A DNA stretch of 43,064 nucleotides from Bacteriovoracaceae bacterium (GTDB lineage Bacteria > Bdellovibrionota > Bacteriovoracia > Bacteriovoracales > Bacteriovoracaceae). The first letter of the stretch is position 1; each line of letters begins with the position of its first letter. The stretch covers positions 1 to 43,064 of the forward strand of contig CANHJD010000003.1 in NCBI GenBank assembly GCA_947461145.1. The letters are read 5' to 3'. Position numbers and translations under genes: made by a program. The notes beneath the pieces are model-generated. The model was given only the letters and a program-made list of their open reading frames with translations, ran no database searches and was not told the DNA's origin. Below, piece after piece: positions 4,504-41,508 of the stretch.

Positions 4504-4574
4504 CTAGCTCTCCCAAGAAAAATAACTACGTCTATGATAGCGAGACGCTAGGAAATTTGGTAGCGTGTTTAGGC

Positions 4575-5168
4575 ATGAAAAGACATTTAATTTTTATTTT
4601 GGTGGCCATTAGCGCATTACCGGCCTTTGCGGACGATCCCCAGTCATCCATAAAAGAAATCTACTTTAATTTGGGAACTCACACTGAATATTATAATGCT
4701 GTCCAAAATGATGATTCAGGCGGACTGCGTAAATTTGATCTGGCCCCAACCATCGGTATTGGGCTAGGCATCCCTTGGAAAAATAATTTCCATTTTTTAC
4801 CAGAGTTTAACTGGGTACTTCCTCAAACCGCGGAAGACTCTCATATTATAATCAATACCTTCATGCTGAGGGGAGATCTTGGGTATGATGTGTATGGCTG
4901 GTTGCGACTGAGACTGGGAACTGGAATTATGTGGCAAAACCAACAAGGCCGTGCAGGAAAATCAACCCAAAATAATGGAAATTCCACATCAACTTTTTAT
5001 TACCCAAATGAGAACCGCTCAAGCTTAAATAATACTTTAGATCTCGGAATTGAAACCCTCTTGGATCAGTACTCAATCCGACTTCAAACTTATACTTACT
5101 CAATATTTAAAAAAGAGCAGCGCCAATATTCCTATACAATATTTTTAACTTATTTCTGGGACAAGTAA
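4575..5168 (+). CDS. Putative outer-membrane beta-barrel protein
   Basis: 197 residues from the ATG at 4575. That start gives a clean signal peptide (MKRHLIFILVAISALPAFA, cleavage before DDPQ). A TTG at 4557 would add six residues and has AGGA a few bases upstream, so the start is not certain. The mature protein alternates polar and hydrophobic or aromatic residues in strand-like blocks (TIGIGLGIPW, LRLRLGTGIMW, YSIRLQTYTYS, YSYTIFLTYFW) and ends with an aromatic-rich strand, as outer-membrane barrels do. About eight strands fit the length. The matrixin gene starts two bases after its stop, so the two are probably cotranscribed. Specific function unknown. Confidence 0.6.
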   Translation: MKRHLIFILVAISALPAFADDPQSSIKEIYFNLGTHTEYYNAVQNDDSGGLRKFDLAPTIGIGLGIPWKNNFHFLPEFNWVLPQTAEDSHIIINTFMLRGDLGYDVYGWLRLRLGTGIMWQNQQGRAGKSTQNNGNSTSTFYYPNENRSSLNNTLDLGIETLLDQYSIRLQTYTYSIFKKEQRQYSYTIFLTYFWDK

Positions 5169-5170
5169 TA

Positions 5171-5983
5171 ATGAAAATCTTCTTCTTACTACTCATCATT
5201 AGCTCCCCATTATTTGCCTATACACTGAATAATAACTTTGGTGCTTCTTTTAAAAATAATGAAATAAAAGTCTACATCGCGGGTAATACAACTTGCTCAA
5301 CAGCACAGTTAAATATTTATGACCTAAATGATCTCATTACCCCTGCCAATGATAATTTCTGGAATAGAGTTCCAACGTCAAATATTCGCCTATCAAATGG
5401 CGGGTACACCGATGCAATTGATAACATCAATACTGGACGTCTATGCGCCCCCACAGATAACGATTGTATAGTTGATGCAGCAGCAACTGTTATTCCCCCA
5501 GTGGATGGGATTGTTATCGCCTGTAACAATAATCCTGACAATTTTAACGGATCAAATGTTTTGGCAGTCACAATTCCCAATAAATTTTCAGGCAGAGATA
5601 TAACTGGAGCTGTTATTCTCATCAATGATTCCTCTGTTGTATTCGCTGGTCTTAGTAAATCAGATAAAATTGGCGTCATTGCCCACGAAGTTGGCCATGC
5701 CATAGGTCTTGGACACACTGATGATACAGCGGCCTTGATGTACTATCGAACCGTAAAACAGAGAAAAACTCTAGGTGAAGATGATATGCGAGGAGTAAGT
5801 TACCTCTACCCAATGAAGCTAGATGGTATGGGTCTGCTTGGAGGTTGTGGTACCATTAGTACTAAACCTCCTGGAGCCTCGGGAAAATCGCTTTTCTGGC
5901 AAATGAGTATCACGCTCACTATTGTGATACTCATATCAGAACTAATTAAATTACTTCGTTCTAAGACTCGTTCCTCGACGTAA
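5171..5983 (+). CDS. Exported matrixin-type (M10-like) zinc metallopeptidase with a C-terminal membrane anchor
   Basis: 270 residues. A signal peptide (MKIFFLLLIISSPLFA) is followed by a compact catalytic domain. The metzincin zinc motif HEVGHAIGLGH lies at 172-182, with ligands His172, His176 and His182 and catalytic Glu173. A Met-turn block ALMYY is at about 189-193. After the peptidase domain comes a Gly/Pro linker and then a hydrophobic helix (about 242-260, SLFWQMSITLTIVILISELI) followed by basic residues, which reads as a membrane anchor at the C-terminus. It sits two bases after the beta-barrel gene. Its 3' end overlaps the convergent aminopeptidase gene by 33 bases. No propeptide with a cysteine switch is visible. 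Confidence 0.82.
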   Translation: MKIFFLLLIISSPLFAYTLNNNFGASFKNNEIKVYIAGNTTCSTAQLNIYDLNDLITPANDNFWNRVPTSNIRLSNGGYTDAIDNINTGRLCAPTDNDCIVDAAATVIPPVDGIVIACNNNPDNFNGSNVLAVTIPNKFSGRDITGAVILINDSSVVFAGLSKSDKIGVIAHEVGHAIGLGHTDDTAALMYYRTVKQRKTLGEDDMRGVSYLYPMKLDGMGLLGGCGTISTKPPGASGKSLFWQMSITLTIVILISELIKLLRSKTRSST

Positions 5984-7714
5984 GCACTCTGCTTCGTATT
6001 CTTCAAGGATAGATTTTTCTTCTTCGCTAAGAAGTTTCATATCAATTAGTGCTGGATCAAAACCAACATAAACAAAAGATTTAAAGTGTAACATCCCCTC
6101 ATATTCTGGATGCTTCTCTACATAAACAATATTCTCTAACCTAACACCACCAAAACCTGGAATATAAATTCCTGGCTCAATTGAAACGGCCTGCCCTGCC
6201 TTCATAGGAAGATTTGATATAGAAGAAAGCCTTACTCCCGGCTCATGAACATGAATACCAACTCCATGTCCTGTTCCGTGAGCATAATCATAACCTTTTT
6301 TTCTCATTGGATTTCTGGCAAGACCATCTAGAACAATCCCCTTCGTTCCCTCTGGGAAAATAGCACTTTGACAGGCAAGTAATCCCTTTAAAACAAGAGT
6401 ATACATTTCGACTTTTTTTGGATGAGGCCGATCCTCAGAAGAACCAGCAAAAAATGTTCGAGTGGTATCAGTTGCAAACCCACCATCAAAATAACCACCA
6501 GAATCAAGGAGAATCATATCATCAATTTTAATCACCACTTCATCGGAAGGATTACCATAGTGAATAATTGAACCGTTGGGCCCAACTCCAGCAATCGTGT
6601 TGAAGCTCTGATCCTTAGATCCCTGCTCATTATATTTTTTTGACGTCTCATAATAGAGATCAAGCTCAGTAATTTTCTTTCCGGCCTTAACAGAATCTTT
6701 TACCCATTTAATCGTATTATAAATCGCTTTATCAGCACGCTTAAAAGACGCCTGCATTTGCTGAATTTCAACTGGCTCCTTAATAGATTGCCAATCATAA
6801 AAGCCACCGGCCTTTTCTGTTAATTTTTCAGTTCCAAATATTTTTACTAGCATTCCAAAATCAGCAGCATTAATCATGCCTGGATCAAACCAGACACTCT
6901 TAAGGTGAAGTGTGTTGTGAATTTTTTCTATCTCTTTACTAATATCGTGAAAAGGGAGGTTGATAAATTCAACTCCATATTCTTTCTTGGCCAAAGCAGA
7001 GACTGGAGTTTCAGGTGAGACAAAAACAAAAACTTTTTCTTTTGTCACCAGAGCTCGTGCATAGAAGCTACTTAGAAATGGGAGGTGATATCCCCTGCAA
7101 TTTGTCACCCACGCAATTGAATCCAATGCCGTGAGGTACATTGCCTCATTGTCTTCTTTAAAAATGGCCCTTGTTTTCTCAAGTGTATCTCGCCCTCGAA
7201 ATTCTCGAGGAATTAGTTTAACTTCTTTTGGTTCTGGGAGTTTTTCAAAATCTATGACTTTTGCTAATTCACCCGGAGCAATTGAAATGGTTTCATGCAC
7301 TGCAGTTGCTAACCGCTTTAAGTAACCTAGCGACGTTCGATCTGCTTCGTATCCCAGGCGATTAATATTATGCTTTGAAAGATCCTTAACAAGATCACTT
7401 GTAGTCGAACCGTCACCGCCAGATTTTACAACAAAAATTTCTTCGTGATTGACCTCTAAGTCGGCCTGTTCATGATAGCGTCCGTCGACATAAAGTCTAA
7501 CTTTGCCGTTTGCAAGAACCAAAACCTCTGCCATGGATCCCGTAAACCCAGTCAGGTAATAACGGTGGTTATCCTCTAAAGGCACATATTCATTAAGAAA
7601 GGGATCAAAACTAGAAATATACATAGCGTCGAGATTTTTATCGGCGACTAGTTTTTTGATCTTTTGGATATTAGATTTGATAGTTTGATTTGATAGACTG
7701 ATAGACTTTTTCAT
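5951..7714 (-). CDS. Xaa-Pro aminopeptidase (aminopeptidase P, M24B family, three-domain type)
   Basis: 587 residues from the ATG at 7714, which has GGAG seven bases upstream; an in-frame ATG at 7753 has no ribosome-binding site. The enzyme removes an N-terminal residue preceding proline, in the cytoplasm. The length and two creatinase-like N-terminal domains (starting QKIKKLVADKNLDAMYIS) place it with the long XPNPEP1-like form. The dinuclear metal ligands are visible in order in the last third: LLDSGG and ATDTTRT (Asp, Asp), HGTGHGVG (His), SIEPGIY (Glu) and VRLENI (Glu). It is divergent from kynA, with the two promoters sharing a short gap, and its 3' end overlaps the matrixin gene. Confidence 0.9.
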   Translation of the reverse strand: MKKSISLSNQTIKSNIQKIKKLVADKNLDAMYISSFDPFLNEYVPLEDNHRYYLTGFTGSMAEVLVLANGKVRLYVDGRYHEQADLEVNHEEIFVVKSGGDGSTTSDLVKDLSKHNINRLGYEADRTSLGYLKRLATAVHETISIAPGELAKVIDFEKLPEPKEVKLIPREFRGRDTLEKTRAIFKEDNEAMYLTALDSIAWVTNCRGYHLPFLSSFYARALVTKEKVFVFVSPETPVSALAKKEYGVEFINLPFHDISKEIEKIHNTLHLKSVWFDPGMINAADFGMLVKIFGTEKLTEKAGGFYDWQSIKEPVEIQQMQASFKRADKAIYNTIKWVKDSVKAGKKITELDLYYETSKKYNEQGSKDQSFNTIAGVGPNGSIIHYGNPSDEVVIKIDDMILLDSGGYFDGGFATDTTRTFFAGSSEDRPHPKKVEMYTLVLKGLLACQSAIFPEGTKGIVLDGLARNPMRKKGYDYAHGTGHGVGIHVHEPGVRLSSISNLPMKAGQAVSIEPGIYIPGFGGVRLENIVYVEKHPEYEGMLHFKSFVYVGFDPALIDMKLLSEEEKSILEEYEAECLRRGTSLRTK

Positions 7715-7719
7715 ACAAT
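7690..7719 (+). promoter_or_regulatory. Probable sigma-70-type promoter of the kynA-kynU unit
   Basis: TTGATA at 7690-7695 and TACAAT at 7714-7719 are separated by 18 bases and lie about 50 bases before the kynA ATG, on its strand. The -10 element touches the divergent aminopeptidase start codon, so expression of the two genes may interfere. Read from consensus only. Confidence 0.4.
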
Positions 7720-7769
7720 ATCTCCGTCCTATAAAAATACTCTCCTCACCCATACTTGGGAAGGCTTTT

Positions 7770-26824: not shown

Positions 26825-27006
26825 ATCTGACTAATTTCCTAGGCAGTATGTGCTTATCATTATCTTTCATATGACGTTAATTCAAAGAGTTGGATTAACT
26901 GAAGACTTTCTGTCCAGTATTGCCTTGCCACAGGGTAAAATATAAATGAATAAATTAAAAAATAATGCAAAAAATTCCGATAGTTATCACAAGAGGAATA
27001 ACACGG

Positions 27007-30000
27007 ATGTTGAACTCGAAGCAAATGGGCCAGAATCAATTTAGAATATTTTCGCTAAGTTTATTAGCGATGCTCTTGATTGTATCATCATGCCTGCCTC
27101 AACAAGCCCCACAAAGTATACAAACTGGTAACAGCACTTCAACAACCAATGATCCAAGCAATAACTCTTATTCAGAACCATCATTTCCCCTTGCTGGAAT
27201 CTTTGTTCAAGATGGGCTAAATCAATCAGCGAATTATTTTTCGCTTCCGCTAAACTTTTCTGACTCGTTTTTAATCAGAGGAAACTCCCTATCGAAATAT
27301 TTGAGATCATTGCCAAATACAACAAAGTTCTGTTTAGTTGGGAAGTACAACTTTACTTCTGGAGTAGATAAATTTTTAATTTTGTCTGGAAAGCCAAAGT
27401 CATACACTGACCTTGTCAACAAAACATCTGAATACTATTTGCAAGTTGAGCCTTCAAATCATCAGGCAAATATGAACGACTGCCTGACACTTACGAGTAA
27501 TCTTTTTTCTGGATCAAACTCTCCAACGGCCTACTTTAATCTGACTCAACTTTGTGCGACTTGTAATTCGTCAGTAACCTCCGAGGGACTAAAACTCTAT
27601 TTTCCAAATGGGGAAAATGTTCCAACTTTAAATCTTTCCTCATTGGCCCTCACAATATCAGGAACAACTTCATCAGAAGTAAATACTTGCACAGAATCGA
27701 CTAGTTGCCAGACAAGAGGATATAACTGCTGCCTTGAAGGCCAATGCGTGAATGATGGTGCCGAAAGACCAGGAGCAAGTTTATTGTCTGGCTATTCTGA
27801 GGCGAAAGCCGATGTGGAATCAAATCCTGAACGTTTTGTTCTTTACCCACAATTCTACTTCGTTTGTAACAACCGTCCAGAGGTTAATGGCTCCGATAAT
27901 ACGCCTCAAACGGGCGATCCGAACTACCAGGCCAGTATTCGCCTTATGGAACTAACTCAACTTTATCAGTGTCTAAATAAAGTCGATGGTGAGTTTTCAT
28001 ATTGCACACTTAAATTTGGCAATGCTTCTCTGAAGGTCGCCTCGGGATCTCCTTTCTCGACTTCTGAGAATGGGATCTTTGACGATATAAATTTTCAAAC
28101 ACTCAACCCAAATTTTGCATCGGGTGATTATGCAAATAATATTGTAAAAATATTTTATGCTGGCCAAGTTCTCTTTGAAGCTAATAAAACACCCCTAAGT
28201 TCGAGTGATGGCTCCTTTACATCAGTTGGTAACGATAACCTCACAAGTGCACAAAGTGTCAAAATTATCAAACCACGACCAGCTAATTCTCAGGACGATA
28301 ATCTATATCTTACTTACAAAATAGATGGCAGTTGTGAAAAACTTGGTTCGAGTTTAGCAAGATGTACTAAAACATATATCCACAATTCATCAGATACAAC
28401 TAGTACCTCTTACCATAATAGTTCAAAAATTTATTACCTACCAACTTATGCAGATTCATCATTGTCAGCAAACATTATAGTTAAAATTTCGGGAGTGATT
28501 ATTCCAGAAGAAGCGACAACTTGGTCGAAGTCCACTTCACTTCCAGGAATCATTTTTAGTGCAAGCTATCCTCTTTATCAAAATCAAACGATCGAAATTA
28601 CTTATTATGTGAACTCCGCCCCTTCGGTGGCAGCTCTTTTAGCTTCTCGTGCGGCTGCACAGTCCGTAGTAAATTCAATGTGCATTTGTGCTTCAAATGC
28701 AAAATGTAACTTAAAGCCACTTTTGAATTCAGAGGAAGAATTAATTAATTATGAGTGTGTACAGTCTTCGACTATATCAACCGAGCCTCCGGCCAATCAA
28801 TCAGTCTTCGTTTCAAACAAAAATATCCCTCATCGTTATTATGATGTGAATGGGGTTAGTTATGATGAAGACTATTCCACTGCCCTCAATCAAGAAGGCA
28901 CAGCTTTCAGTTACCAAAATAACGACAAATTAAAACCTAGCAATCTAGACTCTTACACCGGTTATACTGGTTTTAATGAAATTTACGGCTCCTTCTCTAA
29001 GACGAATCCTGGAGCTGCCAGACCTGCAAAAATGATAAGGGTAAAAAAAGACAAGATTTACGATCTTTTCACAAATAGTGGGATCTTTCAAACTTGCCTC
29101 ACTTGTGGTTCAGATTATTACTCATCTCTTCAATATGTTTTTCCTCAAAGCCTAAACTCTATTGGAGGTGGCTATTCTCCAGATAATTTTAATTCATCAC
29201 GAACTAAAAATAATGGAAGCTATCGCTCTGATGACTTGTTATTTGGCCGGGCCTGCTTCATTCCCGCAACAATGATTCCGTGGACTCATACCGCAGCTCT
29301 ATCAGTAAAAGATCAAAGGACAAAAAGACTTGCTGGTCAGCACTTTCTTTTTGCAAATGGATACAACAAAGACTGGTATGGCTTTGATTATGGTTCACTT
29401 ATTGGTTCATTCGATGGGATCACTTGGTTTTCAATAGGAAACATGCGAAGAATTAAGGCTACATCAAACAAACTTTACCTCGCTGTGAATGCATATTTTG
29501 GCGACTTGAATAGTGAGAACAATTTCAACGTTACGATTTCTGAATCCACTATTTATTCTCCTCCAATGCCGGACCATGACTCTGAGACTTCAGGCGCAGA
29601 ATGCCAAAAATCTCATTTTTGCTCAACAGATAATGATTGTTTCAGACAAGTTGGATATGATTATACTTGTCAAAATATCGGAACGATCACCTCCAGTTGG
29701 CCTATTACAGATGCAAATGGCACTGAAATTATAGGAACGACTTCAAAGTCTCTTGCCTCCATACTCGGAGGCACAAATGGCCAATCTAAAAGATGTGTTT
29801 ACAGAGGACGAGGAGCTCCTTGCCACTCAGACCTCACGTCTATTAACACAACATTTAATTCTTCCTCTTTAACTGGTGTCCTAGCTTGCTCAACCAATAG
29901 TATGTGTCAGCAAGTAAGCTCTGGAACAACAAACCGGTTTAATGACAGAATTGCTCGTTTTGCCAACACTCCTATTGCTCAAAATATTGCAACGACTAGT

Positions 30001-31944
30001 TTAACAGACACACATGGTCTGGGCGCCAGAATTCTAGGAAGACCCTTTGATTTTTATGGCACTAAAACAATTCCTACTGCTTCTACTTACTCTTTAACTG
30101 CCAATAATGTTGGTGGAATTTGTATCCCCGGCAAAAACATTAGTAGTTCAACTAAAACCTATGACCTCAATTCACAGGCACCATTGAGTCGTATTGACAG
30201 CTCTGACAGAATACTTGGCATAGGAACGACATTGTCTGGTCTTCAAAGTCCAAAATATCTTAACTCATGCCCCGCTACAGACTCAATTGGGGTGTCTATT
30301 CAGCAATATGATCTGAACCTTGGGGATCCACTTACTATAAATACTTTAACTGCTGCGCAAAATCTTTCATCAAATCTCCTTAATATACCTTCATTAATTT
30401 CACAAAACATATTCAGCTCAACAAATAATTCTCAAATTACCTCCATTGGCTACCAGAGAAATACATGCCTAAGAGCCGCTGGGGCATCGTGTTTTTCAGA
30501 CATGGACTGTGCCCCCTCAGAATTTATTGCTAATAAAGTGAAAAATGTCGATCTAACAGGTATTCTAAATATAGCTGAACAACAATTCTGGAAAGAAGAA
30601 CTCATCTGTGGCAACCCAGAATTTAAATATGTTCAAAGTGGTGTCTTAAACTCTACAAACTTTGATATTAAAAATAATACCTGTTGCAGAGATTTTGGTA
30701 AAAACTTTTCTGTGTTTACGGAGACAAGTACTTCTGATTATCAATGGTGTGATCAGTCGACATCTTCCATAAAAGTTGCAGGTCTAAACTCAAACATCAA
30801 TTCCTATAATAGATACTCAAGAGTGCATACTGCCTTCGATAAGATGACATGTGACACAGGACAAGTTACTTCAACGAAGAGTTTTGCATTATCACTAACA
30901 GCTACTTCCAATATTCAGCGATATATTCAACAACAAACTCAGTACAAAACTCTTGATACAGTTAATTCACGCACCTGTTGCACCAAGAACTGGGTACGTA
31001 ACTTCCACTCACAAAACGGCGGCGGTCACACCTGGAGTGCGAGCAAGCTCCAAACAATCGATAAGAAATATTTCGTAAGTCTAAACTGGGTTGAGAACTA
31101 TTTAGGCTCTGATAACGCTATTCATTACTATTGCGAGTCAACAGGCTACAATAATCAAACTTGCGAAATCAGAGATTTTACAAATGCTGACGTCGATCTC
31201 TATTTAAAATTCTTTGGTGGCCTTGAATTAACTGGGATTCCTCAGTCTGCACTCATCTCACAGGATCAAGTTTTTAAACGCAACAATGGAGTAGATGGAA
31301 GTGCTCCTTTGGTTAATGAACCTGTTGATGGAACATTTAATAACACAGTTACTCAAGATTATGAAAATAGCTCAGGAAAAAAACTCTATTCAGGCTCAAA
31401 CTACAGCGCCCTCCAAAGCCAGCTCAAGAAAGTTTTCTCTGAAGATGATTTTAGCTGTTGCATTCCTTCCGGAAAACAAGTTCCAGATACCACTAAAGCT
31501 GAGCAATGCTGCACAGGTTACCTAGGAAATACTGGATCTCAAACAGTCCTTAGATGTTGCATGCCAGATTTTACAGACCTAACAGTCTATTTAAGCAGAT
31601 ACGTTTCATCTGAAGGCCGAGGGCTACCAGACTCCGCATATGATCCAGATACTGGTTATATTAAGGATCCAGCAATTGTCAAAATGATTGCAGCACAAAA
31701 AAATCTCTGCTGCTCAGGCGAAGTAATGACAGGTGTTGCGATTAGAAGACTTTATATTCCAATAGAAGGCGATGTATTTGTGCCAGATCCAAGTGCAGCC
31801 ACTCGGCGTTTCGTTTATCTCGACTCAGCTGTGGATAATAACTCCAGTGTTGGTCCAATAGGTCAACTTTATGATAAAGGTCTAAGATGGAACAACCACC
31901 TCTACTGCGTACCAAAAGGACTTACTGTTCCCGCAGAACTTTAG
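27007..31944 (+). CDS. Very large cysteine-rich lipoprotein, unknown function
   Basis: 1645 residues from the ATG at 27007, which has AGAGGA nine bases upstream; an ATG at 26965 would add 14 residues without such a site. A lipoprotein signal ends at LLIVSSC (lipidated Cys29). The mature protein is Ser/Thr/Asn-rich with roughly fifty cysteines, including at least seven Cys-Cys pairs (YNCCLEG, NTCCRD, RTCCTKN, FSCCIPSG, EQCCTGYL, VLRCCMPD, NLCCSG) and repeated CxxDxDC-like knots (FCSTDNDC, SCFSDMDC). This points to a disulfide-bonded, extracytoplasmic multi-module protein. No domain is recognised, and an adhesive or structural surface role is only inference. It ends three bases before the convergent uppP gene. 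Confidence 0.82.
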   Translation: MLNSKQMGQNQFRIFSLSLLAMLLIVSSCLPQQAPQSIQTGNSTSTTNDPSNNSYSEPSFPLAGIFVQDGLNQSANYFSLPLNFSDSFLIRGNSLSKYLRSLPNTTKFCLVGKYNFTSGVDKFLILSGKPKSYTDLVNKTSEYYLQVEPSNHQANMNDCLTLTSNLFSGSNSPTAYFNLTQLCATCNSSVTSEGLKLYFPNGENVPTLNLSSLALTISGTTSSEVNTCTESTSCQTRGYNCCLEGQCVNDGAERPGASLLSGYSEAKADVESNPERFVLYPQFYFVCNNRPEVNGSDNTPQTGDPNYQASIRLMELTQLYQCLNKVDGEFSYCTLKFGNASLKVASGSPFSTSENGIFDDINFQTLNPNFASGDYANNIVKIFYAGQVLFEANKTPLSSSDGSFTSVGNDNLTSAQSVKIIKPRPANSQDDNLYLTYKIDGSCEKLGSSLARCTKTYIHNSSDTTSTSYHNSSKIYYLPTYADSSLSANIIVKISGVIIPEEATTWSKSTSLPGIIFSASYPLYQNQTIEITYYVNSAPSVAALLASRAAAQSVVNSMCICASNAKCNLKPLLNSEEELINYECVQSSTISTEPPANQSVFVSNKNIPHRYYDVNGVSYDEDYSTALNQEGTAFSYQNNDKLKPSNLDSYTGYTGFNEIYGSFSKTNPGAARPAKMIRVKKDKIYDLFTNSGIFQTCLTCGSDYYSSLQYVFPQSLNSIGGGYSPDNFNSSRTKNNGSYRSDDLLFGRACFIPATMIPWTHTAALSVKDQRTKRLAGQHFLFANGYNKDWYGFDYGSLIGSFDGITWFSIGNMRRIKATSNKLYLAVNAYFGDLNSENNFNVTISESTIYSPPMPDHDSETSGAECQKSHFCSTDNDCFRQVGYDYTCQNIGTITSSWPITDANGTEIIGTTSKSLASILGGTNGQSKRCVYRGRGAPCHSDLTSINTTFNSSSLTGVLACSTNSMCQQVSSGTTNRFNDRIARFANTPIAQNIATTSLTDTHGLGARILGRPFDFYGTKTIPTASTYSLTANNVGGICIPGKNISSSTKTYDLNSQAPLSRIDSSDRILGIGTTLSGLQSPKYLNSCPATDSIGVSIQQYDLNLGDPLTINTLTAAQNLSSNLLNIPSLISQNIFSSTNNSQITSIGYQRNTCLRAAGASCFSDMDCAPSEFIANKVKNVDLTGILNIAEQQFWKEELICGNPEFKYVQSGVLNSTNFDIKNNTCCRDFGKNFSVFTETSTSDYQWCDQSTSSIKVAGLNSNINSYNRYSRVHTAFDKMTCDTGQVTSTKSFALSLTATSNIQRYIQQQTQYKTLDTVNSRTCCTKNWVRNFHSQNGGGHTWSASKLQTIDKKYFVSLNWVENYLGSDNAIHYYCESTGYNNQTCEIRDFTNADVDLYLKFFGGLELTGIPQSALISQDQVFKRNNGVDGSAPLVNEPVDGTFNNTVTQDYENSSGKKLYSGSNYSALQSQLKKVFSEDDFSCCIPSGKQVPDTTKAEQCCTGYLGNTGSQTVLRCCMPDFTDLTVYLSRYVSSEGRGLPDSAYDPDTGYIKDPAIVKMIAAQKNLCCSGEVMTGVAIRRLYIPIEGDVFVPDPSAATRRFVYLDSAVDNNSSVGPIGQLYDKGLRWNNHLYCVPKGLTVPAEL

Positions 31945-31947
31945 AAC

Positions 31948-32760
31948 CTAAAACTTAAGTAGTACAATCATAACAATTGCAACTAACCACCTATAGAAAG
32001 CAAAGTACTTGAGATTGATACTACCAATTAATTTCATAAAGAAATGGATGGTAAGAAAGCCTACAAGAAAAGATGTTAAAACTCCCAATAAAAGAACCAT
32101 CACTTTCTCATTTGGGGCATTCATTAAATCTGGCAGCTCCTTTGCAATCCCAGCAAGGATAATAGGAAGTGACATCAAAAATGAGAACGACCCTGCTTCT
32201 TTTCTTTTCATTCCAAGTAAAAGTGCAGCCGTGAGGGTGATACCAGAGCGACTAACGCCAGGAAAAATTGCAATTGCCTGTGCAGCTCCAATAATTATTG
32301 CAAGCTTCCATTGCATGCCCTTTTCCATTGCAAAATCAGTTAATACCATCTTTTTATTTTTGTGATCGGCAAACCACAAAAGGCTGCCAAAAAAGGAAAG
32401 ATTAAAAATAATGATCCAAGGATCTCTTGCCATCTTAGAAATTGGCATAAGTAATAAAATAAAAACAACACTAACAACTGTAGAAAGTATAAAATTCCTT
32501 GAAAACCACTGTGAAGATGTCCCTCCGCTAATAGAGATAAGTGAAGGAGTTAAAGTCTTCACATAGATTAGGATCTCTTTCCTGAAATACACTAAAACCG
32601 CAAGAGCAGTTCCAAGATGCATCATCAAATCAAACACAACTCCAGGGTCCTGAATATGCATCACATGGGGAAGAAGTGCCAAATGGCCCGAGCTACTAAC
32701 TGGAAGGAATTCAGAAAATCCCTGAATCGCCCCATATATAATTGCATCAATTGAATTCAT
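31948..32760 (-). CDS. uppP: Undecaprenyl-diphosphatase
   Basis: 270 residues, normal length, all hydrophobic helices. It dephosphorylates undecaprenyl pyrophosphate to recycle the lipid carrier for peptidoglycan and other cell-surface polymers. The two signature blocks are present: QGFSEFLPVSSSGHL at 13-27 (Glu17) and PGVSRSG at about 167-173 (Arg171). AAGG lies five bases before the ATG. It is 24 bases downstream of the FHA-RDD gene on the same strand and may be cotranscribed with it. Confidence 0.94.
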   Translation of the reverse strand: MNSIDAIIYGAIQGFSEFLPVSSSGHLALLPHVMHIQDPGVVFDLMMHLGTALAVLVYFRKEILIYVKTLTPSLISISGGTSSQWFSRNFILSTVVSVVFILLLMPISKMARDPWIIIFNLSFFGSLLWFADHKNKKMVLTDFAMEKGMQWKLAIIIGAAQAIAIFPGVSRSGITLTAALLLGMKRKEAGSFSFLMSLPIILAGIAKELPDLMNAPNEKVMVLLLGVLTSFLVGFLTIHFFMKLIGSINLKYFAFYRWLVAIVMIVLLKF

Positions 32761-32784
32761 AAATACCTTAAAATTAGTTAGATG

Positions 32785-35118
32785 CTAAATTGAAAAATAG
32801 TCCCTATTATTATTTTCAAAAGCCTCTTTTAATTCCTGAAAATTTTGAAAAAGTCTTAAACGACTATCTTCTTCCTGATTTACAGGCTCTGCGACTTCTG
32901 TATCCGAAACTTTCTTGTTTTTTTCTTTATTGTAATTTTCTTTCATTTTTTCCATGATAAGAAAAATTGATTTCAGAGATTTCTCCCAAAGCTTCATTTC
33001 AACTGGATCGGATTTTTTTAAAACTTCGGCTGATTTTTCAAAGTAATAACCATATAAAGCCTTTGCCTTATTATCTGTTAATATTTGTTTTTTCAAATCC
33101 AAAGAAGAGAAAAAATCGAGGACTTGAAACGACCCTAATACTTCTTCATTCGTTGATTCTTTTCTATAATCAAACCAATCAGTTTCACTCAGTACAAATT
33201 TATAGAGACTGTTCTTCACATGCCCTAATTTCTCTTTTTTATCAAATTCAGCTTTAATAAGCCGCCCCTCCCCCATAATTAGTGGCAAGATTAAATCAAA
33301 TGGCTTTTGGCGAATATATGAAATCTTCAAGAAATAGGCATTCCCAACCTTGAAAAATTGAATTTCACTAAAATCTTTAAATTCAATTAATTCTAAAAAA
33401 GATGATCTATAATCCATTAAACTTTTAAGAAAAGGTGTGTAACTTTCCATGTAATCGAAAGCATTATCCGGGCTTAATTCAAAACATAGTTTGGTAAAGC
33501 TGACAAATTGATCTGCAAACTTTTGATTGGCCTTATCATCATTTTTCGTTTTAAACGCAGGGTTTAAGGACTCTGTTGAATAAACAAAATTGTAAAGGGC
33601 AGGAAACTTATCATAGAGGAAGAAATTACCTTTTAATCCAATCCCGATTAGCTCTCTAAGATCAAACGTCTTAAAGAGTTCCACTTCAACTTCTCTCTGT
33701 AAGTCTTTAAGATAAAAATCGATTGATGGCCGATAAGACATTCTCTTCTTTTGTTCTGAAAATTTAAAAAGAGGAATCATAGAGACAGCATTCGGATCAT
33801 AAATAATTCGAACTTTTAGAAACTTCGAAGATTCTTCATTTTTTATAATTTGTTGTTCATTATTTTTCTCTACAAGCCTTACTCTTTTTTCCAATTTAGC
33901 ATTTACGAGTATTGGTTCCGGAAGCTCCATCCCCTGAATCAGTGGAGATAGAAGTGCTGCAGATATGACTAGAGGGAGATATAATAGCACCCCTAAAATT
34001 GCCAAAAACTTGGATGACAAGTAGGTATGTGTAAAAGTCATAAATTCTTTAAAAGTTCTTCTGGATACAATGGACGAAATATCAAAAATAATTAAAGGGC
34101 CTGTAATAACCCCAATCAACACTCTCAGGAAACCGCCTAATCTTTTCCAAATCATATTGCCTTGTGATCTTACTCCAAGAGCAGCCTCTGAAATAGAAAC
34201 TCCTAAAACCAAGGTGCTAAGAAGGCGCACTAAGACAAACAATAGAATCAACGGCCCAACATTAAGCGTGACGGTAAATAAATTGTGAAGGTCTTTTAAA
34301 ACCTCTGCTAAAAAAGGTTGCTCCGCAGTTAAGGCCGACCAAAGCCCTACCCAGTCGATTCCAAGAAGCTCACCTAGCATGACGGGGACTTCTGCAACAA
34401 AAGCTTTAAATTCATTAAACGGAGACAATATAATAAAAAGTGAATAAGCAATTAACGAATCACAACTGACAGCTATGATTCTTATAAGACTATTGGTGGC
34501 ATGGGTTGTTTGAACAGAAAAAGGGGTGCTCGTTTTTTTTCCATCTTGGTTTTTTTTCGCTTGATTTTTTTTGGATTGATCACTGCCTTCTTTCGATGTC
34601 TTTTTGTTTCTTCGAAAGATTTTTTTTAAAAAAGAAAAATGTTCTCTCTCGTTTTGTTTCTCCACGCTTATTTCTTTTACTGAAACATTTTCAACTTTTT
34701 TTGCTTGAGGTTCTTCTTCTACAACTTCTGAAGCGGAGTGAATCTTCACTTGAAGATCTCCAACCATAATTACATCAGTCTCTTCAAGAATAATCTCTCG
34801 TCCTGGCTGAATTCTTTTACCATTTATCAGAGTGCCTGTGACACTTCCATGATCTAAAACGGAGACAACATTTTCCTGAAGTTTTAAAGTGCAATGTCGA
34901 GGAGAAAGTGATGGATCCGCAACTACAATATTACCGACCTCACTTCCTATGCTAAGTTGATGGGTAAGAATGTAAGTTGGAGCTCCTTCCATGTTGCTTA
35001 GTTCGAGCACAAACTTTTTTACCCAACGAGTCCCGTCAACCATTTCGGTCAATTCATTTTTGCCATCTTTTGTTGGCACATCCTTGCGCCCAAAGAGTTT
35101 TTTGAACAACTGCTCCAT
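32785..35118 (-). CDS. FHA-domain membrane protein with RDD-like transmembrane region
   Basis: 777 residues. Residues 45-128 form an FHA phosphothreonine-binding domain (YILTHQLSIGSEVGN, LSPRHCTL, GTLINGKRI contain the usual Gly, Ser-x-x-His and Asn positions). A Lys-rich linker (about 160-197) follows. Then come four predicted membrane helices (about 210-395) with RDD-like features (ALGVRSQGN, WKRLGGFLRV, IIFDISSIVSRR), and a roughly 380-residue soluble charged C-terminal domain of unknown type. AGAGG abuts the ATG directly with no spacer; a TTG three codons later would have a nine-base spacer, so the start is uncertain. Four runs of eight A occur in the linker codons. It is divergent from the 35333 operon and upstream of uppP. 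Confidence 0.82.
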   Translation of the reverse strand: MEQLFKKLFGRKDVPTKDGKNELTEMVDGTRWVKKFVLELSNMEGAPTYILTHQLSIGSEVGNIVVADPSLSPRHCTLKLQENVVSVLDHGSVTGTLINGKRIQPGREIILEETDVIMVGDLQVKIHSASEVVEEEPQAKKVENVSVKEISVEKQNEREHFSFLKKIFRRNKKTSKEGSDQSKKNQAKKNQDGKKTSTPFSVQTTHATNSLIRIIAVSCDSLIAYSLFIILSPFNEFKAFVAEVPVMLGELLGIDWVGLWSALTAEQPFLAEVLKDLHNLFTVTLNVGPLILLFVLVRLLSTLVLGVSISEAALGVRSQGNMIWKRLGGFLRVLIGVITGPLIIFDISSIVSRRTFKEFMTFTHTYLSSKFLAILGVLLYLPLVISAALLSPLIQGMELPEPILVNAKLEKRVRLVEKNNEQQIIKNEESSKFLKVRIIYDPNAVSMIPLFKFSEQKKRMSYRPSIDFYLKDLQREVEVELFKTFDLRELIGIGLKGNFFLYDKFPALYNFVYSTESLNPAFKTKNDDKANQKFADQFVSFTKLCFELSPDNAFDYMESYTPFLKSLMDYRSSFLELIEFKDFSEIQFFKVGNAYFLKISYIRQKPFDLILPLIMGEGRLIKAEFDKKEKLGHVKNSLYKFVLSETDWFDYRKESTNEEVLGSFQVLDFFSSLDLKKQILTDNKAKALYGYYFEKSAEVLKKSDPVEMKLWEKSLKSIFLIMEKMKENYNKEKNKKVSDTEVAEPVNQEEDSRLRLFQNFQELKEAFENNNRDYFSI

Positions 35119-35140
35119 CCTCTTTAAAACTATTGAAATT

Positions 35141-35152
35141 ACTTAATTAAGT
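35141..35152. promoter_or_regulatory. 12-bp palindrome in the divergent FHA-RDD / secreted-protein gap
   Basis: ACTTAATTAAGT is a perfect palindrome, flanked by GAAA on the left and TTTC on the right, 22 bases upstream of the FHA-RDD start. It sits where a regulator could bind, but AT-rich palindromes are common by chance in this genome. I saw no convincing -35/-10 pair for either divergent gene in 35119-35332. Confidence 0.25.
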
Positions 35153-35332
35153 TTCACGTTTTTTCTCCAAAATGCCAAGCGTCTCAATTACTTGAGCGTT
35201 TCCCTAGGTCGCAGGCTGTGGAGAGCATAGAATTAATCGAACTCGATAAAAGCTTATTTGATTTTTTGGCTTAAAAGTTTTGTGTAAAATGCCGAAAATA
35301 CAAGTAGATACAGTTTATTACAAAGGTGCCTT

Positions 35333-38300
35333 ATGAAGAAATGTAAATTTCCATTTATTCTCTCACTCGCAATAAGTTTGGAAATGGTTCTCTCACCACT
35401 CCCGGCCCTTGCTCAAAACTCAAATGTGCCCGCAAGTCAGACCATGCTTAATGGTCTAAATATTGGAATGAGTCTCATGAACGCTGCAACCGGATATCAA
35501 GCCGGATTTGGAGGAATGCCTCCCTATGTTGCAACTGACATGAGAGAACTTCAGAAACAGCAAACACCAGCACCTGATAAACATTTTACATTGGCAAACA
35601 TGCAAAAGATTCCAGGCCTAATGGATTATATTGCTGTCCAGAACAAAAAAGCTGCCTCTGCTGGAGGAAAGCCAATCAATCCAGCCGCTCTCAATTGTCA
35701 AACTCTACCTACCACCCTCTATGAAGCAAATAATGAAGTATGTCGCAACCGATCTGTTAATTCAATGAGTGGTAATCCGGCTTTCCAAAGAGATGAAGCC
35801 TTTGCTTACTATAATCAGTATCTGCAAATCGATAAACTTTACAGAAACTATTCTGTCCCAAGTAACGTAGGCGGACAGTCTTACGGTACTGGCTGTATGG
35901 AAGATGCAATGGGTGTTCTGAAGGGTTTCTTTGCCTACAGACTTGAACAACTCAATACAGTTGTGACAAACATGGAAGCAGCAACAGCAAAATTTCAAGA
36001 GCAATCAGAGACGGATCTTAGATCTGTTCGTGAATCAAGTGCAATCCTAAACGGGGAAGGCTCCGTATTCGCTAAAGACTTTAAAGACTCTGACACATTT
36101 GATTATTCAAAGCGATTTGGCGACGCTGCTTGTAGCTCGATCTTTTCAAAAGATGCAAAAGATGGAGTTGGTCAACTTGGTAAGGAAAAAGGTCTACTCG
36201 GTATTGAAGATAAACTTAAAACTGAATTGACTTCCGTTCCAAGCGGCTCCAAGTACTCTCTAGAGCAATACAGTCAAAAACACCTCGAAGTTGTCCAAGA
36301 CATAAAAAACATGGCCGACAAAGTTGCCCAACAAGCGACCCTGAACTTTACTCAGCTTTCAGCAAGCCAAGAGGGTTACTCTAGTTTTGTGGGTGGTCTA
36401 GCAAGCGACATTTCTTCAGAGTCTGGCGCGAACGTTGGATTAAATAAATCATTCTTTTCTGACCTTCAGACAAAATTTGCAAAAACTCGTAAGTCCCTAT
36501 CTGATGAAGCAGAATTAATTAATTCGGAATTAGGTGCTCAAGGTGAGCAAGCCATAAAATACCTTAATAACGTTGACAAGGATGCCTCATTTGGTTCCGA
36601 GCTTGTTTCTCTTGAAAAAAATATCAAGTCAGAATGTCTTGCTCGTTCTGGAATTTCTAAAGCGGTATCGCGCATTTATGACCCGAACCTATCCAAAGAT
36701 GCTAATAGGCAATCTGCTGCAGTAATTCAAAAGAGAATCGACTCCATTCTTACAGACAATCAAATGACTCCAGACAGAAAACTTCAGGAAATCCAGGCGA
36801 TTCAAAAAGAATATGGCGACCGTTTTGAATTGAAAATGGATGCAAACTATCAAACTCAAGAAGTTGGAGCCGACGGACAAATTATTAGAAAAACGGTAAA
36901 TGCTTCTAAAAAAATTACACCCGCGTCTTACATCTCCGATGTCATGAAAAACTGTGAGACCCAATTCCAGGTCAACAAGTTAAACAATAAATTGTCTGGC
37001 AAGGAAGCAATTCAACGTTTGAAGTCTCTCAAAAAAGATTTTCAAGCTGCTGCTGAAAAGAACTCAAAAGATATGAAAAATGAAATCATCAAAAAGATGA
37101 TTGAATGTAATGGCAACGGGGCAAATGCGGCAAGCGCTGGTATCAGTTCTTGTTCAAGCGAAAAGTTAAATATGCAAAATCCCAATTTTTGCGCAAAAGC
37201 TGCATTTTCGTGTTCAGTGAACATGAAGCAATGTACAGAAAAGGCGCAGAAATTTGTTAAAGATATCAAGCAGGACCGTTCTAAAAGAATCAATAATTAT
37301 AATAATAACGTTGAAGCGACCCGCAAAAGTTTAGTCGGCATGTTTGATACTGCCTTAGTTAAATACATGAAAGAAGCAGAATCTCTTAGGGCCATGTTTG
37401 GAACAGGATTTACATCCCCTACTGGAATCGAGAGAGATATTAAAGATGGTAACCAATATAGTAGAGACTACCAGGGTGACCCTGGTGATAATCTTGCAGT
37501 AAAAGATCCTAAGGCTTACCTCGAAATGGTAAAGACTAATATGAACATGCTTCAGGATGAAATCAAAAAGCAACAAGAAGGAATTATTGGTGACAATGGA
37601 ATCCTTCAACAGCACATTAAGCAAACAAAAAACAATTACAATCAAAACGTATTGGCCAAAGCGAGTTCTCTAGCGAGAGATTGTCTTGCCGCGTATGACT
37701 CCTACGCAAAAATGATGGGTGATCAGAAAACAGCTTCGGATCAATCTCTTGGAGAGCTTGGAGAGAAAAAAGCTGCATTTTGTGGTCGATATAATGACAT
37801 TATGTCATCAAATCCCATCCCTGGATGTGATGATGGCTATTCTGAAGTGACAACTGCTCTGATTTCAGCAGCAGAAAAAGCCGGTGATTCAAATACTTCA
37901 TATGAAGCACAAAAACTTCGCGGAGAAATGGCAAATGTATGTGCAAAACCTGGCAATCAACGAACTAAAGATGGATCATCTACGACTACTGCATCAATGG
38001 TTTGTACAAAAGCTAGAAATAGTGACCAGGACGCAATCGATGTGCTTAAGACCTTTAATGATGACTGGAAACTTGTATGCGAAGCCATTTCGAAATCCTC
38101 TGGGGATGTGGCCAAGGCCAAATGTAAAGAAATACCCGGAACGACCACAACAACAACAGCTGGAACTGTAACTTCTGCTACTACCTATGATTGTTCTGAC
38201 CTAAAAGACTCAATTATTTCAGACTACGAATACAAAAAGAACAGTACTACAGTAGCTAGTGCCAACAGCGAACAATCGGCGGGGAATGACTCAGGTTCCT

Positions 38301-38404
38301 TCTGTAATGCCAGCAATAATTCGGGTTTTAACACAAAAGGCGATTTTTCAATATTAAACAACCAACCGACTACACCACTGGGCAATATGGGTATAACTCA
38401 CTAA
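35333..38404 (+). CDS. Large secreted helical protein, unknown function
   Basis: 1023 residues with a signal peptide (FPFILSLAISLEMVLSPLPALA, cut before QNSN). The N-terminal part is Gly/Met-rich (GLNIGMSLMNAATGYQAGFG). Most of the rest is Lys/Gln/Ala-rich and helical with coiled-coil character (LKSLKKDFQAAAEKNSKDMK; EIKKQQEGII). About twenty cysteines are spread through it, often at domain edges, and a Thr-run near the C-terminus precedes an unstructured tail. I recognise no domain. AAGG precedes the ATG by six bases. It is the first gene of a three-gene unit with the gluzincin lipoprotein and the PepSY-like protein, suggesting a shared envelope function. Confidence 0.8.
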   Translation: MKKCKFPFILSLAISLEMVLSPLPALAQNSNVPASQTMLNGLNIGMSLMNAATGYQAGFGGMPPYVATDMRELQKQQTPAPDKHFTLANMQKIPGLMDYIAVQNKKAASAGGKPINPAALNCQTLPTTLYEANNEVCRNRSVNSMSGNPAFQRDEAFAYYNQYLQIDKLYRNYSVPSNVGGQSYGTGCMEDAMGVLKGFFAYRLEQLNTVVTNMEAATAKFQEQSETDLRSVRESSAILNGEGSVFAKDFKDSDTFDYSKRFGDAACSSIFSKDAKDGVGQLGKEKGLLGIEDKLKTELTSVPSGSKYSLEQYSQKHLEVVQDIKNMADKVAQQATLNFTQLSASQEGYSSFVGGLASDISSESGANVGLNKSFFSDLQTKFAKTRKSLSDEAELINSELGAQGEQAIKYLNNVDKDASFGSELVSLEKNIKSECLARSGISKAVSRIYDPNLSKDANRQSAAVIQKRIDSILTDNQMTPDRKLQEIQAIQKEYGDRFELKMDANYQTQEVGADGQIIRKTVNASKKITPASYISDVMKNCETQFQVNKLNNKLSGKEAIQRLKSLKKDFQAAAEKNSKDMKNEIIKKMIECNGNGANAASAGISSCSSEKLNMQNPNFCAKAAFSCSVNMKQCTEKAQKFVKDIKQDRSKRINNYNNNVEATRKSLVGMFDTALVKYMKEAESLRAMFGTGFTSPTGIERDIKDGNQYSRDYQGDPGDNLAVKDPKAYLEMVKTNMNMLQDEIKKQQEGIIGDNGILQQHIKQTKNNYNQNVLAKASSLARDCLAAYDSYAKMMGDQKTASDQSLGELGEKKAAFCGRYNDIMSSNPIPGCDDGYSEVTTALISAAEKAGDSNTSYEAQKLRGEMANVCAKPGNQRTKDGSSTTTASMVCTKARNSDQDAIDVLKTFNDDWKLVCEAISKSSGDVAKAKCKEIPGTTTTTTAGTVTSATTYDCSDLKDSIISDYEYKKNSTTVASANSEQSAGNDSGSFCNASNNSGFNTKGDFSILNNQPTTPLGNMGITH

Positions 38405-38456
38405 CCGACTCTTTTTATCGGTTGAGACTCAAGTGATTTCAACCGATAAGGCTTTT

Positions 38457-41018
38457 ATGATGGTACAAAGTCAATGGATGACAAAATTTTTTATAACAAA
38501 TGGCTTTCCTCAGAGACTGTCCTTCTGCTTGTTTTTTGCAATCTTAACTTCTTGTAACCCGACAGAAATCACTTCAAGCGGACAAAGATCCAATACTTCA
38601 TATGCCAATGGTGAATTAACTAACATGGCTTACATTTATAGAGATAGCCCCTACATTTTAGAAGGCGCACAGTATTCTCTTAATGCCAATATGAAAGGCT
38701 CAGTGGATGAGAGCATGCCTGAGTTTATTACAAACAAAAATCAACTTAAAGGCGACTGCACACTCTCACTTTTTAATAGTATCTCAAATATTGATCACAC
38801 TATCTCTGATTGTCTTCAGTCCTACGCCTCTAAATCTGCAAGTCAGCAAATCCTTCCAAGGAAATCTGATGGAACATGGATTTTTCCAACAAACTCTTCC
38901 GAATTTTACCAAGTGAATGGTCATTATCATGTTCAAAAAGGTATTAATACATTCTTTGAAAAATTAAAATTTGCCTACGATACCATTCATTTTAATCCAT
39001 CCTTTCAGATGAATCGAAAATCTATTCCTTACTACCTAGATGAAACAGGCCTCTTCTGGTTTCAGGCCGTAACACCATCAAACGATAACTTTTTTAGAAA
39101 TAGTTTCTTAACCTCTTACAACCTATGTAACCTCGAATTAAATGCCCAGTTCAGTCCCGCTGGACCCGAACTTTGTTTTGGAAAATGGTCGGCCCATCCA
39201 AACTTCTTTTTTATTCAGGACCCTTCCATTATTTATCATGAACTAGGACATGCCCTTATTGCGGTCATGATGAATATGCGTAACGGAACTCCGGGCGCGG
39301 ATCCGCACCCATTAAGATCAAATCTATCTTCTTATGGGTACGATGAATCAGGATCAATTGGTGAGGGCGTTGCTGATTATTATAGTTTTGTCATGAACAA
39401 AAGAACTCATTTTGGTGAATGGGCATTAGGAAGGTCCGTGAATGCCTCTCGCCCAATTAGTGAAGATGATAAACTTCATATAAGTGCAGTCAATGAAACA
39501 TCTGAGGGACGCCTATCTTATCCCCAATACATTCTGTATGATCCAAATAATCCAAATGTACCTCTAGAAGATGTGCACTATGCTGGACAAATCATCAGTC
39601 ATTATCTAGTTGCTTTGACTAAAGAGTTTCAAAATCAGTGCAACTTACCGTCGGCAAGTGCCCATGACATTTCAACTTCCTATGTCATGCTTCTCCTTGC
39701 TGAAACATTTAGTGAATTGGGAGATTTAAGATCTGTAGGTTTTGACATCACTTCTTCAATACCTGCTTCACCTTCGGTAAGTTTTTCAAATCTTGATTCA
39801 ACGGCCTCTTATATGTGGTCTCAAGTTGTTAATCCACCTACATACCGGAATTTTTCTCAAATCCTTTCAAAAAACATCCTCAAGTATATTTCCAGCGGTC
39901 TTTGCCCTAATTTTACAAAAAATGAATCAGAACAACTCTTGGATGATTATGGTCTACTCTTATTTAAAACCTATAATAATGACGGCTCAAGCACCAAAGA
40001 TAAAACAATCCAAGTTAGTTCAACTGGAACTGTCCCCGCTTCAGTACTATCTTCTCCAACAGCGATTCACGAAAATAACCGAAGAAAAACAGTTCTTGTA
40101 TCAAAAGAATTATTAAGTCTTTCTGAGACGACTACAGATAGTGATGTGGCTACCTACTACATTATCGATGACCAAAAAAACATGTCGGGAATTTTACAGA
40201 ACTTGCTTTTTAAAGGTTACCCTATGAATCTCTCAACGGGAACAGCAAGTGTAGAATACAATAATGCAAATATTAAAATTTCTCCTGGTGAAATTGTAGG
40301 GATTGTTCCAAATCTTTATAATGAATCAAATAGTACAATCTCGGGTGTGCATCTGTTGGCCAATGATTGGGACCATGTTCACATAACTGATGAGACAGGC
40401 GTGAATGGAAATTTTAGCCCTTGCAAGATTGATGATACTACAACCCTCGCTCAAGGGGCAATTCAAGGTCAAACCTGCTCAACAACGATGGCCAATTTCA
40501 AAAGACATGTAAAAACATCTGGATCTTTTGCAGCAGAAGCCGCGGCACCAATATGCCTTGTTCAGCTTGAAACTGATGATGTTGCAAAGTGGGTCTCGCA
40601 AAATGAATTTAGAAAGAAACAGGGACTTTCACTTCAAGACAAGGACTGCCTCGGTTATTCAAGTACGACAACTGATGAAGATTTCACTTTCAACCCACAC
40701 GAATGTCTCGTTCGAGTTTTACCTGGGGCAAACAAGGCTTTTTACTCAAAAATTGACCCTCAAAAATCCTATGTTGAAACCATGAGAAATGGTAATCCTG
40801 ATCACGCTTTTGGACCCGGAAATGCCATTATTTTTGAGGTTAATAAATGGATTCCTCCTGGCACAAAATTCAGATGCCGAATGCGGGCAAAATTTAGTAA
40901 CTGCTCAGACTGTTTTTCAGATTCAAGTGATATAACAAACGATGACTATATCGATAGAGAGTATAATGGATCAAAACCTTTCAAAATCATAAATTTTGAA
41001 TTTGAGGTAAATGATTAA
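38457..41018 (+). CDS. Lipoprotein zinc metallopeptidase (gluzincin, thermolysin/fungalysin-like motif)
   Basis: 853 residues from the ATG at 38457, which has AAGG five bases upstream; a GTG start at 38433 is less likely. A lipoprotein signal ends at ILTSC (Cys33). The zinc site is clear: HELGH at 261-265 and the third ligand Glu303 in GEGVADYYSF, the arrangement of M4/M36-type gluzincins. The remaining C-terminal roughly 500 residues are Ser/Thr-rich with paired cysteines and may be substrate- or surface-binding modules. The gene is 52 bases after the helical protein and overlaps the PepSY-like gene by eight bases. Confidence 0.8.
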   Translation: MMVQSQWMTKFFITNGFPQRLSFCLFFAILTSCNPTEITSSGQRSNTSYANGELTNMAYIYRDSPYILEGAQYSLNANMKGSVDESMPEFITNKNQLKGDCTLSLFNSISNIDHTISDCLQSYASKSASQQILPRKSDGTWIFPTNSSEFYQVNGHYHVQKGINTFFEKLKFAYDTIHFNPSFQMNRKSIPYYLDETGLFWFQAVTPSNDNFFRNSFLTSYNLCNLELNAQFSPAGPELCFGKWSAHPNFFFIQDPSIIYHELGHALIAVMMNMRNGTPGADPHPLRSNLSSYGYDESGSIGEGVADYYSFVMNKRTHFGEWALGRSVNASRPISEDDKLHISAVNETSEGRLSYPQYILYDPNNPNVPLEDVHYAGQIISHYLVALTKEFQNQCNLPSASAHDISTSYVMLLLAETFSELGDLRSVGFDITSSIPASPSVSFSNLDSTASYMWSQVVNPPTYRNFSQILSKNILKYISSGLCPNFTKNESEQLLDDYGLLLFKTYNNDGSSTKDKTIQVSSTGTVPASVLSSPTAIHENNRRKTVLVSKELLSLSETTTDSDVATYYIIDDQKNMSGILQNLLFKGYPMNLSTGTASVEYNNANIKISPGEIVGIVPNLYNESNSTISGVHLLANDWDHVHITDETGVNGNFSPCKIDDTTTLAQGAIQGQTCSTTMANFKRHVKTSGSFAAEAAAPICLVQLETDDVAKWVSQNEFRKKQGLSLQDKDCLGYSSTTTDEDFTFNPHECLVRVLPGANKAFYSKIDPQKSYVETMRNGNPDHAFGPGNAIIFEVNKWIPPGTKFRCRMRAKFSNCSDCFSDSSDITNDDYIDREYNGSKPFKIINFEFEVND

Positions 41019-41508
41019 AAAGAAATACTTTGTCCTTATAATTTCTTTTGCCATAATTCTATTTCTTCTTTGGAAAAAGGATGGCTCATTAGTCAAAAAT
41101 TCAATTGTTGATCAAATAAAAGAGGGAAAGGTAGATTCAATAAAAACGCCATATAAAACCGACCTAAAAAAGAAAGCAATCCATGAGCCAAAAGCTTTTG
41201 TAAATGTTCCGTCTAAGAATTGGGAGCAAAAACTTAAACAATCTCTGAGGGCCCAAGCGGGAGACTCTCAACTTTCGATCGAAATAAAAAAAGAAAAATC
41301 GATTATATGGACAAAGGATGAAAATCCACTAAAGGTAGAGTCCGTTGTTGTGAAACTTACGAATCGCCAAAATGTTCAATCGTCCTTTAGGGCCCTCGTG
41401 GACCCCCAAACAGGAAAGGTCTTAGAGTCATGGGACCAAACAATCTTTGATCCCGCAAACGTAAAAGAAAACTTCAGCTTTAAACTCGACTCTCGCTACA
41501 ATCAATAA
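41011..41508 (+). CDS. Single-span membrane protein with PepSY/FTP-like C-terminus
   Basis: 165 residues. An N-terminal membrane helix (YFVLIISFAIILFLLW) anchors a periplasmic domain. Its end, SFRALVDPQTGKVLESWDQT, has the strand-turn-strand pattern of PepSY/FTP domains, which serve as intramolecular inhibitors or folding helpers in thermolysin-like proteases. It overlaps the gluzincin lipoprotein gene by eight bases (GAGG three bases before the ATG), so coupled expression is certain. A role as separate inhibitor or chaperone of that peptidase is inferred; the domain match is by eye. Confidence 0.6.
   Translation: MIKKKYFVLIISFAIILFLLWKKDGSLVKNSIVDQIKEGKVDSIKTPYKTDLKKKAIHEPKAFVNVPSKNWEQKLKQSLRAQAGDSQLSIEIKKEKSIIWTKDENPLKVESVVVKLTNRQNVQSSFRALVDPQTGKVLESWDQTIFDPANVKENFSFKLDSRYNQ

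Follow-up and report, generated by a model that had tools for sequence, protein, structure and literature searches.

A class-wide envelope locus of the Bacteriovoracia pairs a predicted lipoprotein zinc peptidase with a putative detached propeptide

The DNA analysed here, hereafter the window, is a stretch of 43,064 nucleotides from a MAG which tree placement assigns to the Bacteriovoracaceae. It harbors a conserved unit of six genes, LIP> <UppP <FHA-RDD | HEL> PEP> SML>, extending from 26965 to 41508. A sequence-only reading of the same DNA had delimited a shorter locus, 32785 to 41508; the four open reading frames it described are all present at the positions given, and LIP and usually UppP also belong to the unit and lie outside those limits. 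The features are as follows.

26965..31944, + strand: LIP, a 1659-aa lipoprotein with 53 Cys, of a giant Cys-rich family; first gene of the conserved block
31948..32760, - strand: UppP/BacA undecaprenyl-diphosphate phosphatase, with no second copy found in the genome
32785..35118, - strand: FHA-RDD membrane protein, 777 aa, with a large soluble C-terminal domain
34723..35025, - strand: FHA domain, aa 32-132 (Pfam E=5.7e-13)
33919..34503, - strand: RDD-like membrane region, aa 206-400, with conserved R213/D220/R326
32788..33840, - strand: C-terminal soluble domain of the FHA-RDD protein, aa 427-777, alpha+beta
35119..35332, no strand: FHA/HEL divergent intergenic region, 214 bp
35333..38404, + strand: HEL, 1023 aa, Sec-exported, all-helical, class-specific
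38457..41018, + strand: PEP, predicted lipoprotein zinc peptidase of thermolysin/fungalysin type, 853 aa from ATG 38457 (861 aa if GTG 38433)
38553..38555, + strand: PEP lipobox Cys33 (TSC|N), invariant in 56 homologues
39237..39251, + strand: PEP HELGH zinc motif, aa 261-265; H, E and H in 56/56
39360..39377, + strand: PEP GEGVAD third zinc ligand motif, aa 302-307; E303 and D307 in 56/56
39576..39578, + strand: PEP His374, profile-aligned to the thermolysin catalytic His231; His in 54/56
41011..41508, + strand: SML, membrane-anchored PepSY-like protein, 165 aa, overlapping PEP by 8 bp; putative trans-acting propeptide
41272..41448, + strand: PepSY-like region of SML, aa 88-146, aligning to the C-terminal end of phylum-wide partners (E=2.1e-5)

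The FHA-RDD and HEL genes are divergent, as had been described, and the 214 bp between them correspond to distances of 110-336 bp across 53 homologous loci. The reported 8-base overlap of PEP and SML is likewise present, the two genes overlapping or abutting in nearly all of 77 loci. A promoter scan of the divergent intergenic region scored no better than shuffled sequences, and a terminator scan at the locus stayed at chance level. Among the four proteins first described, Pfam found a significant match for the FHA domain alone and none in HEL, PEP or SML.

The order of the block recurs in 20 relatives from 11 genera wherever contigs allow, as well as in 80 loci from named genomes, Halobacteriovorax marinus and isolates of Bacteriovorax among them. 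Loci with this order span the whole class Bacteriovoracia, with protein identities down to 15-40%, and the recurrence is not a matter of chance. PEP is present in 120 and LIP in 121 of 129 class genomes. Of the 100 class genomes that were at least 85% complete, 99 contain HEL; it was found in none of the 190 phylum genomes outside the class. When checked across related genomes, the four genes of the original description stay adjacent, and with this class-wide synteny the proposal of a conserved, uncharacterised envelope locus holds. Flanking genes differ among genera while the block stays whole; MetG is a constant neighbour within the genus. Because such housekeeping neighbours (UppP, and MetG in the genus) are syntenic too, synteny is weaker evidence for HEL, LIP and the FHA protein as functional partners.

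One clade (genera g53, g58, g4 and g61; SH-aLRT 97) is devoid of LIP and PEP, and no SML was seen in it. As in the window, cinA neighbours the FHA-UppP pair in g53 and g58, and HEL is found elsewhere, adjoining argS; in g4 and g61 the divergent FHA-RDD/HEL arrangement is already in place. The FHA-UppP pair adjoins cinA also in lineages without the remaining block genes (L220-L223), and FHA-RDD beside HEL is kept in two lineages without PEP (L160, L163). The simplest order of assembly starts from FHA-UppP, to which HEL and then PEP-SML and LIP were added; since the root of the tree is unfixed, loss of LIP and PEP in this clade is equally possible, instead of later gain. As their absence is confined to a single clade, it counts as one evolutionary event and not as repeated coevolution.

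Each of 8 genomes tested has a single UppP gene, which in two of them (G015 and G028) is located away from the block. Being the sole genomic copy and lying elsewhere in two genomes, it is probably a housekeeping neighbour and was rejected as a functional partner. In G015 (L045, L166) it is found at a distance of about 0.47 Mb with the remaining block in place, which speaks against its membership in the system. One MAG has FHA-RDD and UppP fused in a single 1006-aa ORF (L046/L067, G009; Pfam BacA 7.8e-65).

The FHA fold of the FHA-RDD protein is certain from both Pfam and AlphaFold. The model has a pLDDT of 85, with the blocks of the C-terminal domain mostly above 90; the 50 matches listed in a fold search with it were all FHA domains or FHA-bearing proteins, none to the C-terminal domain. 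The RDD-like helices of the sequence-only reading are retained insofar as the first-helix Arg and Asp (R213, D220) are conserved and followed by a basic loop as in the RDD family, while the Pfam RDD match is weak (2/20 homologues, best 0.023). Unlike that family, the protein carries an added FHA domain, lost in many homologues, and a conserved soluble domain of 350 residues. An N-terminal FHA domain on a membrane protein is a feature shared with YscD/PrgH and GltG/TagH, from which the protein differs by its RDD-like multi-helix region and its other C-terminal domain; no companion secretion or gliding genes were seen near it. An identity as a T3SS, T6SS or gliding FHA protein was rejected, as only the FHA domain matches, and that of a YscD/PrgH T3SS inner-ring protein in particular because there are several membrane segments and the Pfam YscD_cpl match covers the FHA domain only; no T3SS genes were recognised among the neighbours.

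The FHA domain is gapped in 27 of 57 homologues, about half. Of the 29 homologues that keep it, 26 have Ser and one has Arg at the position of the phosphate-contacting Arg. In the window the canonical phosphothreonine-site Arg (GR) and Asn are both missing, the Arg position being occupied by Ser59 and that of the loop Asn by Thr94. In four MAG loci (L114, L117, L126, L138) the whole FHA-RDD gene is absent and HEL-PEP-SML remain. A second FHA-RDD paralogue is found at another conserved locus (L216-L219, L224, L225), with homologues of window positions 3388-7753 nearby; its expected place in the present genome is beyond the left edge of the contig.

HEL had been described as secreted and helical, and it does possess a Sec signal and an all-helical AlphaFold model (pLDDT 83) with three helices of 59-69 residues, besides 17 strongly conserved Cys. 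A fold search of the PDB gave no match at E<=0.001, the only hits being long coiled coils, among them PrgA and SMC proteins; judged by its model, HEL is a long coiled-coil protein. LIP shares 33-58% identity with 12 homologues, and 47 Cys columns are conserved at 90% or more. It has no significant match in Pfam and none in the PDB, including its residues of about 740-870 (YGFDYGSLIGSFDG..WFSIG...SNKLYLAVN), which may resemble a LecA/PA-IL type lectin motif. In one genome LIP is split into two adjacent ORFs (L083 / G021:C102:76052-80936), possibly by a frameshift or an assembly error. A closer look at four genomes revealed in each a further LIP paralogue, likewise giant and Cys-rich (L212 6701+, L213 7514+, L214 1099-, L215 7417+); the gene immediately upstream of it encodes another secreted, Cys-containing helical protein, which has no homology to HEL. 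This hints that LIP-type proteins pair with helical proteins.

The assignment of PEP as a lipoprotein zinc peptidase is corroborated by its invariant lipobox cysteine and by HExxH and ExxxD motifs in 56 of 56 diverse homologues. The zinc-site residues H261, E262, H265 and E303 are kept in all of these; the active site is intact. Peptidase_M4_C (Pfam) matches 24 of the 56 (best 7.6e-7); the window PEP itself has no Pfam match, and one homologue exceeds the family cut-off (G009, 26.2 bits). When PEP is aligned to a profile made from genuine M4 enzymes of related genomes, HExxH, ExxxD and the catalytic His coincide (hhalign E=7.8e-5, probability 61%). A direct PDB profile search with PEP gave no useful match, and solved structures were reached only via the wider family described below. 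PEP is therefore best explained as an active zinc peptidase of thermolysin/fungalysin type, as predicted from these sequence comparisons. No FTP or PepSY domain was found in PEP, nor does it have an N-terminal propeptide in cis, the HExxH motif being positioned about as in a mature enzyme; since the cis FTP-PepSY propeptide is lacking, PEP is filed as a variant of the M36/M4 gluzincins and not as a typical member. At its C-terminus PEP carries a Cys-rich extension.

The normal M4/M36 propeptide consists of two parts, FTP and PepSY. Propeptides of the thermolysin/fungalysin families fold and inhibit their enzyme (PMC6490944, PMC8208579). A search of the whole phylum with the PEP profile yielded weaker matches in about 50 genomes outside the class, the better of which are lipoprotein peptidases of 500-690 aa. 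The profile of these Bdellovibrionota peptidases aligns to PEP over nearly its full length, save the C-terminal extension (hhalign E=1.5e-42), matches solved fungalysin and thermolysin structures at 1e-8, and 17 of 20 members match Pfam M36 (fungalysin). In all 25 lipoprotein peptidases inspected, the next gene lies on the same strand at -115 to +19 bp and encodes a product with a hydrophobic N-terminus. With 8 of these partners as seeds for an FTP-PepSY protein model, 23 of the 25 match it, 15 of the 17 non-seeds among them. Pfam detects FTP in 8 of 20 downstream partners (best above cut-off) and PepSY in 4 of 20. Relatives without a lipobox (L233, L234, L247) are also without such a downstream partner. 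The two-gene arrangement, in which the gene of a fungalysin/thermolysin-like lipoprotein peptidase precedes that of an FTP-PepSY protein with a membrane anchor, was observed in other Bdellovibrionota families (L227-L257), and appears to be a general split-propeptide design in the phylum.

SML, formerly described as a small PepSY-like membrane protein, has the N-terminal membrane helix; its Pfam PepSY match is weak, occurring in 5 of 51 homologues (best E=0.0032). Its similarity to PepSY emerges from alignment to the C-terminal end of the phylum-wide partners (hhalign E=2.1e-5, probability 77%, 50 columns). SML is shorter than these partners and evolves fast, with a mean column identity of 22%, and Pfam detects no FTP motif in SML, though the motif is present in partners elsewhere in the phylum. 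The SML gene lies directly downstream of PEP and its product is membrane-anchored, as would be expected of a propeptide acting in trans. SML is taken as a candidate detached propeptide because it matches the FTP-PepSY partners that accompany PEP homologues elsewhere in its position, its topology and its C-terminal sequence. A more informative link at this locus, missed by the sequence-only reading, is that PEP and SML are best read, from these alignments, as an enzyme and its detached propeptide.

On balance it is probable that PEP and SML constitute a two-gene protease module, with SML as the propeptide in trans, inside a class-wide envelope locus in which HEL and LIP are likely partners. PEP would have lost the propeptide normally located in front of the catalytic domain, and SML, with an inner-membrane anchor and a periplasmic PepSY domain, would be its remnant. 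SML probably aids folding of PEP and holds it in an inactive state at the inner membrane, until lipoprotein sorting to the outer membrane, where PEP presumably resides, would free it to act. In the Bacteriovoracia the module would have been joined to HEL, a secreted disulfide-rich coiled coil, and LIP, a giant Cys-rich surface lipoprotein. These two may be the most likely substrates or partners of PEP, and for this reason PEP would most likely mature or remodel a surface or periplasmic structure. A more elaborate version, according to which the whole locus is one machine where SML-restrained PEP acts on a HEL stalk and LIP and thereby arms a structure for prey attachment or entry, is judged unlikely.

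Several other explanations were weighed against the PEP-SML module. The gene order might reflect mere inertia, with PEP-SML as the only functional pair and LIP, UppP, FHA-RDD and HEL as neighbours that have simply not been rearranged; the sole UppP copy and its displacement in two genomes, the FHA-UppP pair beside cinA without the rest, the constancy of MetG within the genus and the restriction of PEP/LIP absence to one clade all fit this. It is nonetheless considered rather doubtful, as the block has stayed whole despite different flanks between genera and despite the departure of UppP (G015) and of FHA-RDD (L114/L117/L126), and as LIP and PEP are missing from the same lineages. That SML is an independent PepSY membrane subunit, for instance an assembly factor for HEL, instead of a propeptide is regarded as distinctly improbable: PepSY domains do occur in proteins unrelated to M4 proteases, and SML has no FTP and evolves fast, but the position, topology and C-terminal sequence it shares with FTP-PepSY partners elsewhere, together with the overlap of the PEP and SML genes, argue for the propeptide.

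PEP could also serve as a predation weapon, an outer-membrane protease which digests surface or periplasmic proteins of the prey while SML prevents self-damage. The class Bacteriovoracia includes known predators of other bacteria, and an inhibitor in trans would suit an enzyme dangerous to its owner; prey-lytic proteases are moreover described in the related Bdellovibrio (Bd2269; PMC12546842). This possibility is held to be somewhat unlikely, since the peptidase/propeptide pair is widespread in the phylum, possibly including non-predators, PEP is usually single-copy without the diversification that weapons might show, and the literature gave neither expression nor mutant data on these genes or on the class. 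Least credible is the phospho-regulated membrane hub of the sequence-only reading, in which the FHA protein would sense phosphothreonine and switch envelope assembly or proteolysis. The certain FHA fold, the divergent arrangement with HEL in 53 loci and its persistence without PEP in L160 and L163 speak for it. About half of the homologues, though, have no FHA domain, nearly all that keep it have Ser in place of its Arg, and the entire gene has gone from four loci in which HEL-PEP-SML stay; a phospho-switch was consequently rejected on the change of phosphate-site residues and the loss of the domain, and a regulatory hub is highly improbable.

The PEP-SML module, a protease without a propeptide in cis encoded with an operon partner, has a counterpart in RhpP of Pseudomonas savastanoi, an M4 protease without propeptide; RhpC, encoded in the same operon, binds it and holds it in check (PMC6490944). 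RhpP, which has no signal peptide, occurs in both the cytoplasm and the periplasm, and the RhpP-RhpC pair controls T3SS genes (PMC6490944). The likeness to PEP-SML is one of described properties; RhpC is not described as a PepSY protein in that report. With fungalysin (M36) and thermolysin (M4) enzymes, e.g. elastase LasB, PEP and SML have in common HExxH and ExxxD, the catalytic His and, on the reading proposed, the FTP-PepSY propeptide logic of chaperone and inhibitor. They differ from these enzymes in the separate, membrane-anchored putative propeptide, the lipoprotein nature of the enzyme, the Cys-rich C-terminal extension of PEP and the weak sequence similarity.

The envelope locus is real, class-wide and uncharacterised, and it varies a known protease family in a novel and well-supported way. 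Thermolysin and fungalysin enzymes are textbook cases of proteases whose own propeptide serves to fold and inhibit them. If the PEP-SML reading is true, placing the propeptide in one membrane and the enzyme in the other would turn this intramolecular switch into a spatial one, phylum-wide. HEL, an apparent signature of the whole class without a known fold match, is a strong entry point to the molecular distinctness of the lineage, predators included.
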